Positions 6,712-23,823 of a DNA stretch of 51,296 nucleotides are shown one piece after another. The stretch spans positions 1-51,296 of the forward strand of contig DYEF01000071.1 of the NCBI GenBank assembly GCA_020725805.1, in the 5' to 3' direction. Origin of the DNA: Bdellovibrio sp. Its GTDB lineage: Bacteria > Myxococcota > SpSt-1050. A model generated the notes under the pieces. It was not told the origin of the DNA. It saw only the letters and a list, made by a program, of their open reading frames with translations, and searched no databases. Numbering within the stretch: the first letter of the stretch is position 1; the number at the start of each line of letters is the position of its first letter. Made by a program: the position numbers and the translations under genes.

Positions 6712-7545
6712 TCACTCCTTCTTCCTCTTTACCACTTCTATAGACATATCTATGCCTTTTGCCGAATGGGTGATTTTACCTATCGAAATAAAATCCGGTT
6801 TATAACGGGCGATTTCCTTTATGTTTTCGAGATTTACCCCTCCTGAGACCTCCACAGGGACCCTTCCCCTCACAATCTCTATCGCCCTTCTGATATCCTC
6901 CGGATTCATATTGTCCAGCATAATCACATCGGCGCCCGATTCTATTGCCTCTTCGATCTGGAAGAGTTTCTGGACCTCGACCTCGATTTTTACAAGATGA
7001 TGAACCCCGCTCTTTGCAAGTTCCACGGCCTTCCTTACAGAACCGGCAACAGCAATATGATTGTCCTTTATCAGTACCCCATCTGAGAGCGAGAACCGGT
7101 GATTGTATCCTCCGCCGTCTCTGACAGCCTTCTTTTCCATCAATCTCATAAGCGGAAGAGTCTTTCTTGTATCGACTATCTTTACACCCGTACCTTCGAC
7201 TGCATCAACATATTTTCTCGTAAGTGTTGCCACACCGGAGAGGTGCATTATAAAATTGAGAGCCGTTCTCTCACCCTTCAGAATATTTCTCAGATTCCCT
7301 TTAAGATAGGCAGCTTCTGTATTCTGAGGCACCAAATCTCCGTCACTGACATTAAATTCTACTTCTACACCACCCAGTTCCTCAAAGACGGCAGCAAATA
7401 TTTCAAGGCCGGATATTACAGACTCCTCCTTTACAAGAAGAACCGCCTTCCCTTTCATATCATCAGGTACTATATTATCAGTAGTAATATCCGAAACAGG
7501 CATATCCTCCCTTAATGCATCTCTGACAAGCTTTTTAATATCCAT
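6712..7545 (-). CDS. nadC: Nicotinate-nucleotide diphosphorylase (carboxylating)
   Basis: NadC converts quinolinate and PRPP to nicotinate mononucleotide, CO2 and pyrophosphate in de novo NAD synthesis. The protein has 277 residues, the standard length. Substrate-binding residues are visible: E92-R93 (GERTALN), T126-R127-K128, R134, EKKAV from about 137, GGGYNHR at 144-150 and K160-D-N-H163. ATG is preceded by AGAGGT. It is the last gene of the valS-nadC pair, 16 nt after valS. nadA and nadB are not in the window. The gene is convergent with the rlmD-like gene without a recognisable terminator between them. Confidence 0.95.
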   Translation of the reverse strand: MDIKKLVRDALREDMPVSDITTDNIVPDDMKGKAVLLVKEESVISGLEIFAAVFEELGGVEVEFNVSDGDLVPQNTEAAYLKGNLRNILKGERTALNFIMHLSGVATLTRKYVDAVEGTGVKIVDTRKTLPLMRLMEKKAVRDGGGYNHRFSLSDGVLIKDNHIAVAGSVRKAVELAKSGVHHLVKIEVEVQKLFQIEEAIESGADVIMLDNMNPEDIRRAIEIVRGRVPVEVSGGVNLENIKEIARYKPDFISIGKITHSAKGIDMSIEVVKRKKE

Positions 7546-14379: not shown

Positions 14380-15807
14380 TCAAATGATATTGGGCGGCGG
14401 TTTTACTCTCGAGAAGATCTGCCGCACCTTCTGATGCGTGGGAGGCCGCGTAATTTCTCCGGACTCCTCAATGGTAACTGTTATGTTATCCGCAACATCC
14501 GTATCCTTAAAGAATTCGGCAAACCTCTCCCTTATCTCCTTCTCGATTCTTTCATTCTCCTTCGAGTCCTGAGCGATATATCTGACAAGAAGATGATTCT
14601 GTTCCTCGTGTATGAGCTGGTACTGCCTCAGACCCTTTATTCTCAGAAAGAGCGCCTCGAAGGGGATAGGCGGGAATGCCCTGAAATGCCCTTCCTTTGT
14701 CATCAGATAGAATGTATCATCGCTCCTGCCCTGAACCTCTATCACTGCAAAGGGAGAACCGCATTCGCATTTGTAATTACGGTCAATTACAACGGAGTCC
14801 CTCAGTTCATACCTGATGAGCGGCTGCAACTTATTGATAAAATTTGTGATTAGCACCTTTTTTGAAGCGACCCCGTCCGAAACCGGTCTGTTCTCATCAT
14901 CTACTGCCTCGATAAGGACATAATCTTCATTTATATGCATCTTCTGATACCTGCACTGGTTGGCAAGGCATATTGCCTCGGTAGTTCCGTACGTCTCTAC
15001 TATCTCCACATCCTTAAATGCCTTCTTTATAACCTCACGGGCATGGTCGCTGAAAGGTTCACTCCCCGAAGACATAAAGTCCACATCAATTTTAAGTCTG
15101 CCGGCGAGCTTTTCGTATGCAAGTGCCTCCAGAAATGTGGGATAACTGTGTACATAATGCGGCTGGAATTCATTGAGCTCCTCTACCATTTTGTTCATAG
15201 GTTTCGTTATTGAAAATATCCTTATATCGGAGAGATAGAAAGCCTGCTTCGGAGTAAGTCTTGCCAGAAGATAGGTAATATAATGTCCCTCACTTGCAAC
15301 GATCATAGCCCATCGCAGTTTCGTCCTGACTGTATATTTATAAACATACGGAAAAGAGAGCCTGTGCTTCAGTAATCTTGCAAACTCCACCCCCTTCTGA
15401 ACTATCCACTGCCACTGACTCATAAGAAAATAACCTATTATGCCCGTAGTACCGGATGTAGTCGAGAGTACATATCTGTTCTTGAAATATTTCCCTACCG
15501 AATCGGGGTCGTGGGCAAACAATACTATCTCATCCCTCGATATACCCCTTATCGTAAGGGAATCAGGCAGATGCTTGAGCAGATATTCCTTGTTTACCGT
15601 AGGGAGGTCTGTCAATTTTGCCTTACTGATATCGATATTCTGATAGAGTTTTCTGTAAAGAGGGCTCTTTCTGAACGCATATTTAATAAGACGTCTTAAT
15701 TTTTTATCTCTTATTTTAAGTATTCGCTCTCTCGAGAAATATCTCTCTCTTACCCTTGCCCAGACGGCAACGGCAAACATAAGTATCAGCTGGAAGAAAG
15801 ATTTCAT
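14380..15807 (-). CDS. PaaK-like adenylate-forming enzyme (phenylacetate-CoA ligase family)
   Basis: The protein has 475 residues. The ATP-binding signature STTSGTTG is at 115-122, and VETYGTTEA (near 265) matches the second adenylation motif; the C-terminal subdomain continues to the end. Members activate a carboxylic acid as acyl-adenylate, often for CoA transfer, but the substrate here cannot be named: the family also includes coenzyme F390 synthetase and capsule-related CapK proteins. A hydrophobic N-terminal stretch (about 3-17) followed by Arg-rich residues may attach it to the membrane. ATG has AAGGAG 4-5 nt upstream, and a promoter lies at 15831-15858. It heads the tmk-hisS-tlpA-dacB group, an unexpected partner for these genes. 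Confidence 0.8.
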   Translation of the reverse strand: MKSFFQLILMFAVAVWARVRERYFSRERILKIRDKKLRRLIKYAFRKSPLYRKLYQNIDISKAKLTDLPTVNKEYLLKHLPDSLTIRGISRDEIVLFAHDPDSVGKYFKNRYVLSTTSGTTGIIGYFLMSQWQWIVQKGVEFARLLKHRLSFPYVYKYTVRTKLRWAMIVASEGHYITYLLARLTPKQAFYLSDIRIFSITKPMNKMVEELNEFQPHYVHSYPTFLEALAYEKLAGRLKIDVDFMSSGSEPFSDHAREVIKKAFKDVEIVETYGTTEAICLANQCRYQKMHINEDYVLIEAVDDENRPVSDGVASKKVLITNFINKLQPLIRYELRDSVVIDRNYKCECGSPFAVIEVQGRSDDTFYLMTKEGHFRAFPPIPFEALFLRIKGLRQYQLIHEEQNHLLVRYIAQDSKENERIEKEIRERFAEFFKDTDVADNITVTIEESGEITRPPTHQKVRQIFSRVKPPPNII

Positions 15808-16018: not shown

Positions 16019-17875
16019 TCAGGAACTAGTATCATCGTCGTCGTCCAATGGCGGAGCCCCGACATCCTCACAGACTGCATCGAACGAAGGACTTTCCGAA
16101 TCCAGAGAATCTGCATCATCCGGGGGTCTCCCCACATCTTCAGTTACAAAATCAAATGAAGGTGCATCCTGTATATCAGAAATTACATCAGGGGCCATCT
16201 CACTTGAACCGGATTCCGAACAGGCAACCCCTGCAATTCCGAGAGCAATCATTACGGCAGCAGCATGTCTCGAAATAGATTTTGATAATCTAAATAGTCT
16301 CCCGTCTTTTCTCTTAAGACCCACAAGTCGCAGCGACAGATTCTCCATATCTGTCCTGAGAGAGATTCCCTCTGACAGAAGCATCAATCTCTCTTTCTCC
16401 TCCTCAGCTGCAAGGGCTGAAAATCTGTCTTCAAGTCTCTTTTTATCCTGTTCACCCGTTACAAGCTCAACAAGCCGTCTTAAAAATGAGACAGTATTCC
16501 TGTTTGTTGATAATAGCCAGTTCATTACCTCATCGGAGAGCTCTTTCACCTCTTTGCCACAATGGAAATGACTCAGAGTAGCCCTGACATGGTCTATACC
16601 GATTGCCGTCGACATAAGATTGCCTGTAGAGAGACATCTGTTTCTGAACAATCTGTATGAATACTCCCAGAGTCTCTGCATCAGTTCATCCTTCATATAA
16701 TAATTTCTGCCCATATAACTGCCGTATGCCCGGTTCTCATCTATCATTCTCTTCTCGAGAGGGGTGCCTGCATATATTTCTGTCCTGCAAAAGTTGAATG
16801 GATGAGATATAAATCTTTCCATAAATTCCATATCTCTTTCTACCGTAGATATATCTGCATCGGGATGAAAGAGGAGTATATTGAACTGGGAAGAAATATC
16901 CAGTTTCTCGCATAATCTCAATGCACGTTCTGAATCTTCTACACTCTGAGGCCTCCTGAAAGAAGCAAGACCCGTCTCTGTTGAGGTCTCAATCCCCATA
17001 AATATTCTGAGAAGCCCGAGCCTTTTGAGTCTTATTAAAACCTCCTCTGTAATATCATTCGGTCTGCATTTGATTACAAGCCCTATGTCATTTATATTAT
17101 TTCCTGCCAATTCTTCACTCAATTCACTGATTCTCTCAAGATTCTTTGTCTCTGAGGGCACAAGGAAGTTGTCGTCGTGAAAAACAAACTGCCTGATGCC
17201 TCTGACATTGTACAGATATTTCATCTCCTTTACCACTTCACTTACAGACCTCTGCCTGAATCTTTTCCCGGGTGCAAGTTTGTGAAGAGTTGTTATACAG
17301 CAATATGTACATTCACCGAAACAACCTCTGCTTCCGAGCATATACGCAGTAGGAATACCTGCGACCAGTCTCGCCGCACCACTTCTGTCGGGCCATGGGA
17401 GTGCATCAAGGTCATCGATTATCTCTCTCTTCTCTGTAAATATAATATCTTTATTATCTCTGTATGCTATACCCTTGATTCTTTTAAAATCCCTTTTTCT
17501 TGACAAGAACTCCTTTACCAGTTCCACCATAGTCAATTCACCTTCGTGAATTACTATTACATCCAGTTGTTCGTAATCTCTGAGAAGATTCTCAGCTGCA
17601 CAGGAGGCAAAATGTCCGCCGGCGATGACAGGCCTGTAAGGATTATCCTTCTTTAACATTTCGGCAAGCTTTAAGTACTCCTTTGCCCTTGCCTGAAATG
17701 TCATTGAAAGGCCTATTATGTCATAATCTCTTGCCTGCTCAAATGCCGTATCGATATCTTTTTTCGTATTAAATGCAATCAGACCCGTTTCGAAACCGGC
17801 TGACCTGAGCGAAGATGAAATATACCTGAGTGAGAGATTCTCCTCGAAATTCGGTCCAATCAGTCCTATTCTCAT
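16019..17875 (-). CDS. B12-binding-type radical SAM protein with lipoprotein-like C-terminal tail
   Basis: The protein has 618 residues. Residues about 1-145 match a cobalamin-binding fold (GGHFAS, VIHEGE), but the DxHxxG motif that supplies the lower His ligand is not seen. The radical SAM cluster motif is C185-x3-C189-x2-C192 (GCFGECTYC), and the TIM-barrel core runs to about 400. A helical region follows. The last ~88 residues are unusual: a basic residue pair, a hydrophobic segment (about 538-551) ending IAGVAC, then CSESGSS and an acidic tail with a repeated SFD-x-V-x-EDVG-x-PP unit. This looks like a lipoprotein signal and linker placed at the C-terminus. The reaction is unknown. ATG has GGAGG upstream; a promoter is at 17906-17934. 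Confidence 0.82.
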   Translation of the reverse strand: MRIGLIGPNFEENLSLRYISSSLRSAGFETGLIAFNTKKDIDTAFEQARDYDIIGLSMTFQARAKEYLKLAEMLKKDNPYRPVIAGGHFASCAAENLLRDYEQLDVIVIHEGELTMVELVKEFLSRKRDFKRIKGIAYRDNKDIIFTEKREIIDDLDALPWPDRSGAARLVAGIPTAYMLGSRGCFGECTYCCITTLHKLAPGKRFRQRSVSEVVKEMKYLYNVRGIRQFVFHDDNFLVPSETKNLERISELSEELAGNNINDIGLVIKCRPNDITEEVLIRLKRLGLLRIFMGIETSTETGLASFRRPQSVEDSERALRLCEKLDISSQFNILLFHPDADISTVERDMEFMERFISHPFNFCRTEIYAGTPLEKRMIDENRAYGSYMGRNYYMKDELMQRLWEYSYRLFRNRCLSTGNLMSTAIGIDHVRATLSHFHCGKEVKELSDEVMNWLLSTNRNTVSFLRRLVELVTGEQDKKRLEDRFSALAAEEEKERLMLLSEGISLRTDMENLSLRLVGLKRKDGRLFRLSKSISRHAAAVMIALGIAGVACSESGSSEMAPDVISDIQDAPSFDFVTEDVGRPPDDADSLDSESPSFDAVCEDVGAPPLDDDDDTSS

Positions 17876-17905
17876 ATTGTTCCTCCTTATGCTTTAACTC
17901 CTTCA

Positions 17906-21708: not shown

Positions 21709-23823
21709 TTACTCCTCCTGAAAATAGTTAACAGGCAAACATATAGTACCTATTTTATCTATAAGACGGCATACAGTCAATGATTTCGAACAGTCAAAGT
21801 GGTGTCTGCACCGCTCGGTACAGAAGGAATCCAAGCTGCTGAGTACTGCACAGAATCCGGAATCGCAGACATATGGGTCTTTTCTGCAACTCTGCCCGAC
21901 AGAGGATTTCTCTGGCTTCGGGGCACAGACCCGTGCCGCCTTTGCATAATCCTGTGAGAAATATACCGGTACTATCCTGCATATTTCACCGCTTCTGCAA
22001 TCCTCATCCACAGCACAGAACCTCGTACAGTTACCAATAAAACCGGCAGATATATCTGTATCTGAATCAGGCAGACATACGCCGCTGTCACACTCCTCAT
22101 TGGAATAACATATCTCACCGTATTCTTTTAGCGTTTTATGGATTTTCATACAAACCGGTTCTATCTCCCCGCTCCTGCTGTCAAAGAATATCCGGCAGAC
22201 CTCGCCTTCTGGACAACCCTCACTTCTCAGACACTGATACAATGAACCCGGGTCTAAAATACAGATCTTGACTATTGTTTTATTCCAGATATCTACATTC
22301 AGACCTGCAAAGACACACACATAATCATCCGGACAATCATTTTTTGTTCTGCACAGAGCCGAACAGGTCATACTTTCATAAAGACATATTCCGGATGCAC
22401 AGGGATTAATACACTCTTCCCCTGCAACGGAGTAAGTTTTAGAAGGCCTGCGGCATTTTACTGATTTTTCACTATTATCCTCCGCAAATGAGCAGAAATA
22501 ACCTTCAGGACAATCACCGTCGCTGTAACACTCACTCTGACTTACCTCTTTCTGGCATACATTCTTACCGTCGAGCGCCTTACAGACAAAATCAGCGGGG
22601 CAATCGGAGGCATTACTGCAGAGATTCGAACAGTAAGGAATATCCGAATTCTTCATACAGATTGAACTTTTGCATTCATCATCGGAATATGTACAGTATT
22701 CTCCCGTCTCTTTCTTTAGTTCCTTATAACTGACACATCCCCTATAGGGCAGGTTATCCTCGCTTGAGAGCATCTCTTCGCACACAAAGCTCTCGGGACA
22801 ATCAGAATCTTCCCGGCAGGGCATAGTACACAGATTTCTGCACGAATCCCGGCAATATCCGGGTCTTCCGCACATACCCCATCTGCACTCATAGTACCTC
22901 TCGCAATAATAATTCGAAATGGCACCGTTATTCAGTATCCCGCAGAAGGTCGTTATGCCGTCTCTGTCTGCCGTAAATGAATACCTGCATTTCAGGTCAT
23001 AACTGCAGTCCTTACTGCTATTGCACTGATATGGTCTGTAAATCCCCTTTTTGATACATACTTTCTTATCAGGATAAGTCGGAAATATTCCGCAATAATA
23101 GTCATACGGACATTCCGAACTGTCCGAACAGAGTCTTGAACAATAAGAATATGCGTAACCGTCAGTAAAAAGGCATATTCCGCTGTTACACTCCCTTTCG
23201 GGCTCTTTACCCTCACAATACATACCGGTCTCGGCAGGAATTTTCGGGATGCAGGCAAGCCTTCCCTGATAGTCCCTGTCGCATATCTGATTGCTGTCAC
23301 AGTCCATATTGGAGTTACACCCTCTTCCACACTTCTCTACAGGAATACATCTGCCATCCGAGCAGACCCGGCAACTCCCGCAATCAGAATCATCCTCACA
23401 TAGCGTCACAATACAATATGTCGAAAGTTCACACAGACCGTTTATGCACATCCCGCACGGCTCACATTCCGAATCTTTGCTGCATATCTTCCGGGAATAT
23501 ATACTCTTGACACATATCTTGTCACTCCCTACCTTCGAACAGAAGTAGCCGGCAGGGCAGTCATAATCATAATTACAGAGCTGTGTACAGTATTTCTCCT
23601 CATAATTTTCCATACAGAATCCGCCTATGCAGTCATCAGCACCGTTACATAATGTACCCACACTGACGATGCAATAACTGCCTGATTTTACAGACCCGAC
23701 AGGACAATCTGCCCTTACAAGTTCAACAGGTTCGGGTTTTTCACAGGAAACGATGCATTGTAAGAGCAGAAGGAGAGTAATAATTTCAGTAAAAAGAAAG
23801 AATTTTCTTGGTATAATTTTCAC
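21709..23823 (-). CDS. Large Cys-rich modular lipoprotein
   Basis: The protein has 704 residues. The signal peptide ends with the lipobox CIVSC (Cys at about 27). The mature part consists of many tandem modules with spacing like C-x-DxDCP-x-G-Y-x-C and C-N-S-G-I-C-L, giving well over 60 cysteines by inspection. It is homologous to 3724-5340 and 2733-3713; here the modules form larger repeats of about 75-80 residues (CxSGICL...YCSxLC...DCPxxxVC). Expected location: outer membrane, oxidised. Function unknown. The start is GTG at 23823 with only weak Shine-Dalgarno-like sequence; no better in-frame start is near. The TATAAT at 23880-23875 could be its -10 box. Confidence 0.86.
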   Translation of the reverse strand: MKIIPRKFFLFTEIITLLLLLQCIVSCEKPEPVELVRADCPVGSVKSGSYCIVSVGTLCNGADDCIGGFCMENYEEKYCTQLCNYDYDCPAGYFCSKVGSDKICVKSIYSRKICSKDSECEPCGMCINGLCELSTYCIVTLCEDDSDCGSCRVCSDGRCIPVEKCGRGCNSNMDCDSNQICDRDYQGRLACIPKIPAETGMYCEGKEPERECNSGICLFTDGYAYSYCSRLCSDSSECPYDYYCGIFPTYPDKKVCIKKGIYRPYQCNSSKDCSYDLKCRYSFTADRDGITTFCGILNNGAISNYYCERYYECRWGMCGRPGYCRDSCRNLCTMPCREDSDCPESFVCEEMLSSEDNLPYRGCVSYKELKKETGEYCTYSDDECKSSICMKNSDIPYCSNLCSNASDCPADFVCKALDGKNVCQKEVSQSECYSDGDCPEGYFCSFAEDNSEKSVKCRRPSKTYSVAGEECINPCASGICLYESMTCSALCRTKNDCPDDYVCVFAGLNVDIWNKTIVKICILDPGSLYQCLRSEGCPEGEVCRIFFDSRSGEIEPVCMKIHKTLKEYGEICYSNEECDSGVCLPDSDTDISAGFIGNCTRFCAVDEDCRSGEICRIVPVYFSQDYAKAARVCAPKPEKSSVGQSCRKDPYVCDSGFCAVLSSLDSFCTERCRHHFDCSKSLTVCRLIDKIGTICLPVNYFQEE

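Follow-up and report, generated by a model that had tools for sequence, protein, structure and literature searches.

A B12-dependent radical SAM enzyme probably fused to its own substrate through an internal lipoprotein-type signal segment

The window analyzed here, that is, the whole 51,296-nucleotide stretch of a Bdellovibrio sp. assembly (GCA_020725805.1, contig DYEF01000071.1), contains on its minus strand an open reading frame of 618 amino acids (16019-17875, the same coordinates as in the first-pass annotation), with its ATG start at 17875 and its stop codon at 16019-16021. The following features were assigned to it:

17881..17888, minus strand: Shine-Dalgarno-like AAGGAGGA (AGGAGG-type), 5 nt ahead of the ATG, read from the sequence
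16319..17875, minus strand: B12-binding and radical SAM enzyme with a long C-terminal helical hairpin (about aa 397-517), from Pfam, AlphaFold2 and Foldseek
16220..16273, minus strand: signal-peptide-like segment SRHAAAVMIALGIAGVAC, aa 535-552, from the sequence and the homologous RHAAAV segment in fused relatives
16022..16222, minus strand: post-signal tail, aa 552-618, acidic and predicted to be disordered (AlphaFold2 pLDDT <50 from aa 565)
16184..16207, minus strand: motif copy 0, SSEMAPDV, aa 557-564, from comparison with the tails of relatives
16121..16159, minus strand: motif-like repeat unit 1, SFDFVTEDVGRPP, aa 573-585, from the duplicate test
16049..16087, minus strand: motif-like repeat unit 2, SFDAVCEDVGAPP, aa 597-609, with the extra Cys602, from the duplicate test

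Domain order and cluster-binding pattern both place the N-terminal part among the B12-dependent radical SAM enzymes. A B12-binding domain (PF02310, aa 12-119, 61 bits) precedes a Radical_SAM domain (PF04055, aa 182-346, 66 bits), each above its curated Pfam cut-off; both domains occur in 51 of 51 family members, across which the CxxxCxxC cysteines—Cys185-x3-Cys189-x2-Cys192 in the window's enzyme—are invariant. The AlphaFold2 model, built with a 51-sequence alignment, exceeds pLDDT 90 over most of aa 1-520 and keeps a confident fold until about aa 520-530; it also has a short helix over SRHAAAVMIALG, with disorder beyond. Searched with Foldseek, this model resembles OxsB, TsrM, MgmA and CysS, all of them cobalamin-dependent radical SAM enzymes, and sequence profiles point to the same group. 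Among the matches listed, the protein reaches the cut-off of no NCBIfam equivalog (HpnJ, BchE, ApyD, HpnR, KedN5, MgmA and rSAM_ocin_1): the best score is 109.5 bits against a cut-off of 577.6 (HpnJ), and the ApyD model gives 93 bits against 750.

Behind the enzyme domains lie IAGVAC (aa 547-552), CSESGSS and an acidic tail, just as the first-pass annotation had described. The signal-peptide-like segment reads RHAAAVMIALGIAGVAC and ends at Cys552: basic KSISRH is followed by a 14-residue hydrophobic stretch (aa 538-551) and then by the lipobox-like GVA-Cys552, which is a weak lipobox and internal to the protein. Here and in relatives, signal segments were judged by eye and hydropathy. The acidic tail runs for 67 residues from Cys552, and five residues past that cysteine sits SSEMAPDV, a canonical copy of the family motif (compare GVSEMAPPP in locus L072) that was absent from the earlier description; shuffling puts the probability that such a motif falls no more than 15 aa from the Cys at about 0.4%. 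The duplicated SFD-x-V-x-EDVG-x-PP unit with one extra Cys, also reported earlier, withstood scrutiny: the two units are identical at 10 of 13 positions, a level equalled in 0 of 20,000 tail shuffles, and the additional cysteine is Cys602. Since seven of the ten identical residues use differing synonymous codons, the duplication is an old one, maintained at the protein level. Both units deviate from the family consensus, and they look like divergent copies of the family motif.

Outside the tail, (D/E)DVGxPP occurs nowhere else in the window's own genome, and SSEMAPDV is the sole post-Cys match there of the xEMAP pattern, whose reversed control matches equally often in that genome. One candidate for a substrate acted on in trans, the CEMAP match at L153 and the only other one of the xEMAP pattern, was rejected: it is buried in an Ig-like repeat protein and does not follow a signal Cys. 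Sorting tails of the MYXO-CTERM or PEP-CTERM type carry a transmembrane segment and an Arg cluster at the extreme C-terminus. The window's protein does not conform to this arrangement, as 67 acidic residues follow its hydrophobic segment and, in relatives, whole domains do.

A close homologue was found in 13 of 195 Myxococcota genomes, and none was found in the same-genus genome G001. Scanning with the window's protein as single query retrieved no relative. An alignment of 13 homologues, run against one genome per species (84,980 species), yielded 122 relatives, of which 80 were kept and examined as loci. They come from Myxococcota, Acidobacteriota, Spirochaetota, Planctomycetota, Gemmatimonadota, Verrucomicrobiota, Armatimonadota and other phyla; most are MAGs, and lone labels (Nealsonbacteria, Nitrososphaerota) call for caution. 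The first-pass annotation had proposed comparing homologues with and without the tail, and both kinds exist. The tail is fused to the enzyme in 47 of the 80 loci, and in another 23 the motif sits in a lipoprotein-like gene of its own next to the enzyme; these counts include near-duplicate MAGs and rest on scan patterns derived from the 13 homologues. The remainder comprises five loci at a contig edge, one with a truncated partner, two in which no partner was found, and two divergent loci with a different kind of partner. The earlier suggestion that the tail marks a gene fusion is thus well supported, as homologues carry it either fused or as a downstream lipoprotein-like gene. The enzyme family is apparently large and without a name; a literature search of largely open-licence papers found no description of this combination of enzyme and tail.

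In the 47 fused loci, the tail consists of a hydrophobic segment, usually a Cys (38 of 47 by direct reading, with several good lipoboxes such as LAGC and LLGC), and then copies of (V/S)xE(M/A/Y)APxP or VxDPLPPP. Examples of the motif in fused tails are as follows:

L072: GVSEMAPPP
L073: GLSEMAAPP
L076: GVIEAPPPPMD, three copies
L078-L080 and L083: GVAEAAPPPYD-type units, three to five copies
L082: VSEYAPPPLED
L098 and L142: HMCEMAPPP
L145: HPTEMAPVP
L107 and L115: PPPPDPLPPP

Motif letters differ from clade to clade, and after or between the motifs stand variable domains of extracytoplasmic type (TonB_C, PEGA, CarboxypepD_reg, ankyrin, TSP3). The pattern E(M/A/Y)(A/P/V/M)(P/A)xP has 68 copies in 29 of the 47 tails against 1.2 in composition-preserving shuffles, and DP(L/M/P/V/I)PxP has 44 copies in fused tails against 3.0; because the motif definitions came from the same tails, these figures demonstrate non-random order and are not an independent prediction. 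The motif is also tightly associated with the enzyme. Within four genomes whose fused enzymes bear VAEAAPPP, 14 of 15 matches fall inside the fused gene, and lone matches in other genomes are mostly in the wrong frame or in an unrelated protein; one of them (L041, genome G075), at the end of a contig, is a piece of a genuine tail. Two Spirochaetota loci among the window's nearest relatives, L071 and L075, have the hydrophobic segment and a tail with no clear motif; TSP3-like and ankyrin repeats follow the signal-like segment, and FSHTPPSPL stands in the motif's place.

In the 23 split loci, the enzyme ends ahead of the hydrophobic segment, and the next gene encodes a lipoprotein-like protein of 96-270 aa, which has a signal-like segment, in most cases a Cys, and the motif in the form VVDPLPPPAxC, VCDPMPAP or GAVDPPPP; in eight cases the partner gene overlaps the enzyme's stop by 4 nt. 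Sixteen aligned partners are 16-38% identical to the first, and only M1, R26, D56, P59 and C64 are invariant: Asp56 and Pro59 lie in the motif, Arg26 is a basic signal residue, and Cys64 is the one invariant cysteine. A DNA pattern for xVxDPLPPPxxxC matched in 5 of 195 Myxococcota genomes, in all five immediately after the enzyme gene or what remains of it (in G096, locus L066, the enzyme ahead of the match is a truncated remnant). The folded domain of one split partner is a beta sandwich with no significant match in the PDB, the best being the DsbD N-terminal domain (E 0.0055). A further short element, LM-x-E-(V/I)-LP-x-P, precedes the signal segment at the cytoplasmic N-terminus of eight partners (LMxEVLPxP; L095, L108, L114, L117, L120, L132, L136 and L146), while in a different split clade (L086, L097, L101 and L103) it is the enzyme that has such an element, (S/L)TE-x-LP-x-P, as its C-terminal end. 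The gene boundary seems to have moved across this one shared element, which could be a recognition site or a further modified site. At L141, in Geomonas oryzae S43, a 239-aa ORF starts 32 nt past the stop of a divergent enzyme at 6806 (plus strand); its product has no evident signal peptide and carries several copies of FRPPPEPAH or FRPPPEPVH, a differing proline-rich repeat. This may be a cytoplasmic version of the system, and the strain can be cultured.

Because the motif is kept in fused and split forms, often stands in tandem and, in the pattern searches, turns up nearly only with the enzyme, the simplest reading is that it is what the enzyme acts on. We therefore consider it probable that the window's gene encodes a B12-dependent radical SAM enzyme together with the enzyme's own substrate, the two being joined by an internal lipoprotein-type signal segment. 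The family as a whole is best explained as a RiPP-like system in which the enzyme would modify a motif in an exported lipoprotein, in cis where the two are fused and in trans where they are split. The first-pass annotation had offered a fused substrate with core repeats as one explanation of the tail. The structural half of that proposal stands—the same motif recurs, often repeated, fused or separate—and we infer the modification, as we do catalysis on the tail, its chemical type, export and cleavage. Several observations count against this reading: AlphaFold2 leaves the window's tail disordered, GVAC is weak, L071 and L075 have no clear motif, the motif's letters vary by clade and the window's repeat units are off consensus. 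Its constant place next to the enzyme could also mean that the motif serves in docking or at the surface and is not the modified site.

One alternative is that the tail only anchors the enzyme in the membrane and extends beyond the cytoplasm, with its acidic or proline-rich portion as a surface linker and the enzyme acting at the membrane on an unrelated small molecule or lipid. The good conservation of the hydrophobic segment and Cys would suit such a role, as would tails that often run into TonB_C, PEGA, CarboxypepD_reg or TSP3 domains of extracytoplasmic type, and several related enzymes do act on lipids (HpnJ, HpnR). The 23 split relatives, however, pair an untethered enzyme that lacks the hydrophobic segment with a separate lipoprotein-like protein, and what is kept and repeated in both forms is a short motif, not a linker or a domain. 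We regard this explanation as unlikely. The membrane anchor suggested by the first-pass annotation survives as one part of the tail, an anchor or export signal, but is insufficient alone, since the conserved piece is the motif behind the segment.

Somewhat less likely again is a role as partner instead of substrate. The tail or lipoprotein would then sense, carry or receive the enzyme's product outside the cytoplasm, its position next to the enzyme would serve co-regulation, and the motif would dock the enzyme or an exporter. Domains behind the motif vary widely, as in a modular partner, and the conserved LMxEVLPxP or STExLPxP on the cytoplasmic side could serve as a docking site. Yet the motif lies outside the signal segment, so that docking there would have to precede export in any case; several tandem copies suit core units better than a single docking site; and no metabolic or transport gene is conserved nearby.

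The first-pass annotation had also asked whether the junction near 16290 hides a frameshift and whether sequencing error had fused a separate downstream lipoprotein gene. No support emerged for a frameshift there, since homologues in other phyla read through the junction with the same (P/S/A)RHAAAV. The 45 fused rows come from several phyla and cluster on the enzyme tree. In that tree (77 rows, a quick build with SH-aLRT support only), the fused and split states require two changes against about 21 with shuffled labels, and the window's clade of 17 rows is strongly supported, with 16 fused and one cut by a contig end. Tree clustering and the common RHAAAV junction in independent assemblies rule out that the fusion arose by assembly error. 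A lipoprotein-like gene does stand on its own downstream of the enzyme in split relatives, but an artefactual joining of such a gene to the enzyme through a frameshift or missed stop is highly improbable, because every readable member of the clade (the window and 16 other rows) is fused, the RHAAAV-type junction recurs across independent assemblies, and no second start with a ribosome site was seen ahead of the window's tail.

Among the family loci, no recurring neighbor besides the motif partner suggests a function; a recurring Ser/Thr kinase cluster is probably the background of large genomes. In the window, a PaaK/F390-synthetase-like adenylating enzyme (14380-15807, minus strand) lies downstream of the fused gene and is not a recurring family neighbor, and a 704-aa Cys-rich lipoprotein-like protein with many CP-x-GY-x-C-type repeats is encoded at 21709-23823 (minus strand). 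Some 13-14 radical SAM genes, the majority of them with B12-type N-termini, form an unusually dense array at G000:C41:45000-84000 (L155 and L156), where they are interleaved with ORFs named by eye as polyprenyl-synthase-like, phytoene-desaturase-like and membrane glycosyltransferase-like. None of its radical SAM genes has the tail, and the array perhaps serves lipid biosynthesis.

If the tail is the substrate, the N-terminal enzyme, complete with [4Fe-4S] cluster and cobalamin, would fold in the cytoplasm and would then modify SEMAP, and probably also the two VxEDVGxPP copies, of its own tail in cis. B12 radical SAM enzymes that act on peptides often C-methylate them, and here, too, C-methylation would be the most likely chemistry, on or next to the conserved acidic residue and prolines. 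ApyD, itself a B12 radical SAM enzyme, C-methylates the C-beta of Tyr (PMC10635010). The hydrophobic segment would send the tail to the Sec and lipoprotein machinery, and the modified tail would leave the cytoplasm, remaining attached to the enzyme or freed by signal peptidase II before Cys552. As the motif is located beyond the export segment, on its outer side, modification would have to come before export; MNIO RiPP enzymes likewise modify lipoprotein substrates ahead of export (PMC12636315). An enzyme N-terminal in the same chain, or translated just ahead of the lipoprotein, would help modification to beat export. In split relatives, the same events would occur in trans, on a lipoprotein encoded directly downstream. 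A more specific version, which we hold only tentatively, is a widespread protein that modifies and then splits itself: once the fused polypeptide has modified its own tail, signal peptidase II would cleave it at the internal lipobox, so that the enzyme stays cytoplasmic and a modified peptide with a lipid anchor reaches the envelope; a lipoprotein signal preceded by the enzyme would then stand in for the RiPP leader peptide.

Two known systems come closest: the MNIO DAG-RiPPs, which are RiPP-lipoprotein hybrids, and the borosins, which are enzyme-core fusions. TIGR04133 and TIGR04134, which we take to be a radical SAM/lipoprotein pair of Bacteroidetes, were both absent from the listed matches of the family enzymes and of three split partners. 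Borosin enzymes differ in being alpha-N-methyltransferases of another fold, and their core does not stand behind a signal segment; split versions exist there too. We rejected borosin identity for the window's protein: its enzyme is a B12 radical SAM enzyme instead of an alpha-N-methyltransferase, and only the fused layout is common to both. Bufferins and other MNIO RiPPs differ in enzyme and in their metal-binding Cys cores, and we know of no bufferin fused to its enzyme. They resemble the present family in that precursors are exported after modification, according to PMC12452194, and some bufferin-type MNIO RiPPs have predicted lipoprotein signals, as stated in PMC12636315. In the borosin layout (PMC8429565), a modifying enzyme is N-terminal and the core C-terminal in one polypeptide, and the fused core is modified.

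In DAG-RiPPs (DybA/DybH, NedA/NedB/NedC), a RiPP enzyme modifies a short, sometimes repeated motif of a substrate that carries a lipoprotein signal; maturation by the lipoprotein pathway follows, and the genes for enzyme and substrate are adjacent (PMC12636315). The likeness would lie in the short, sometimes repeated motif behind a putative lipoprotein-type signal, with a candidate modifying enzyme that is adjacent or, in the present family, fused. DAG-RiPP enzymes, in contrast, are MNIOs with non-heme iron, whereas the present enzyme is a B12 radical SAM enzyme; DAG-RiPP motifs contain Cys (CPxCGxG, EGKCG), and in that account no enzyme-substrate fusion is described and radical SAM enzymes go unmentioned in the main text, although its authors allow that cases beyond MNIOs may exist (PMC12636315). 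ApyD (PMC10635010), MgmA (PDB 9ccb; TM-score 0.73 by target length against the window's model) and Mmp10 (PMC8828468) share the fold, with B12-binding before radical SAM, and C-methylate side chains of peptides or proteins (PMC10635010, PMC8828468). Unlike the window's enzyme as proposed here, they work in trans, their substrates being leader peptides or methyl-coenzyme M reductase, and their NCBIfam cut-offs lie far above the scores obtained. By this comparison, the family appears to work like a RiPP-lipoprotein hybrid with another class of enzyme, in which enzyme and putative substrate form one chain in the window's clade.

The candidate biological product is a periplasmic or surface peptide or lipoprotein. 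If the tail is indeed the substrate, the enzyme-substrate pairing is known beforehand, a rare situation among radical SAM enzymes whose function is unknown; co-expression and mass spectrometry can address the question, helped by the motif and its copy number and by the existence of split and fused pairs. To our knowledge, it would also be the first case in nature of a radical SAM enzyme fused to a core that is exported. Across a large family of radical enzymes, the substrate would then be written in the same or the next gene, and RiPP-lipoprotein hybrids would extend from MNIO to B12 radical SAM chemistry.
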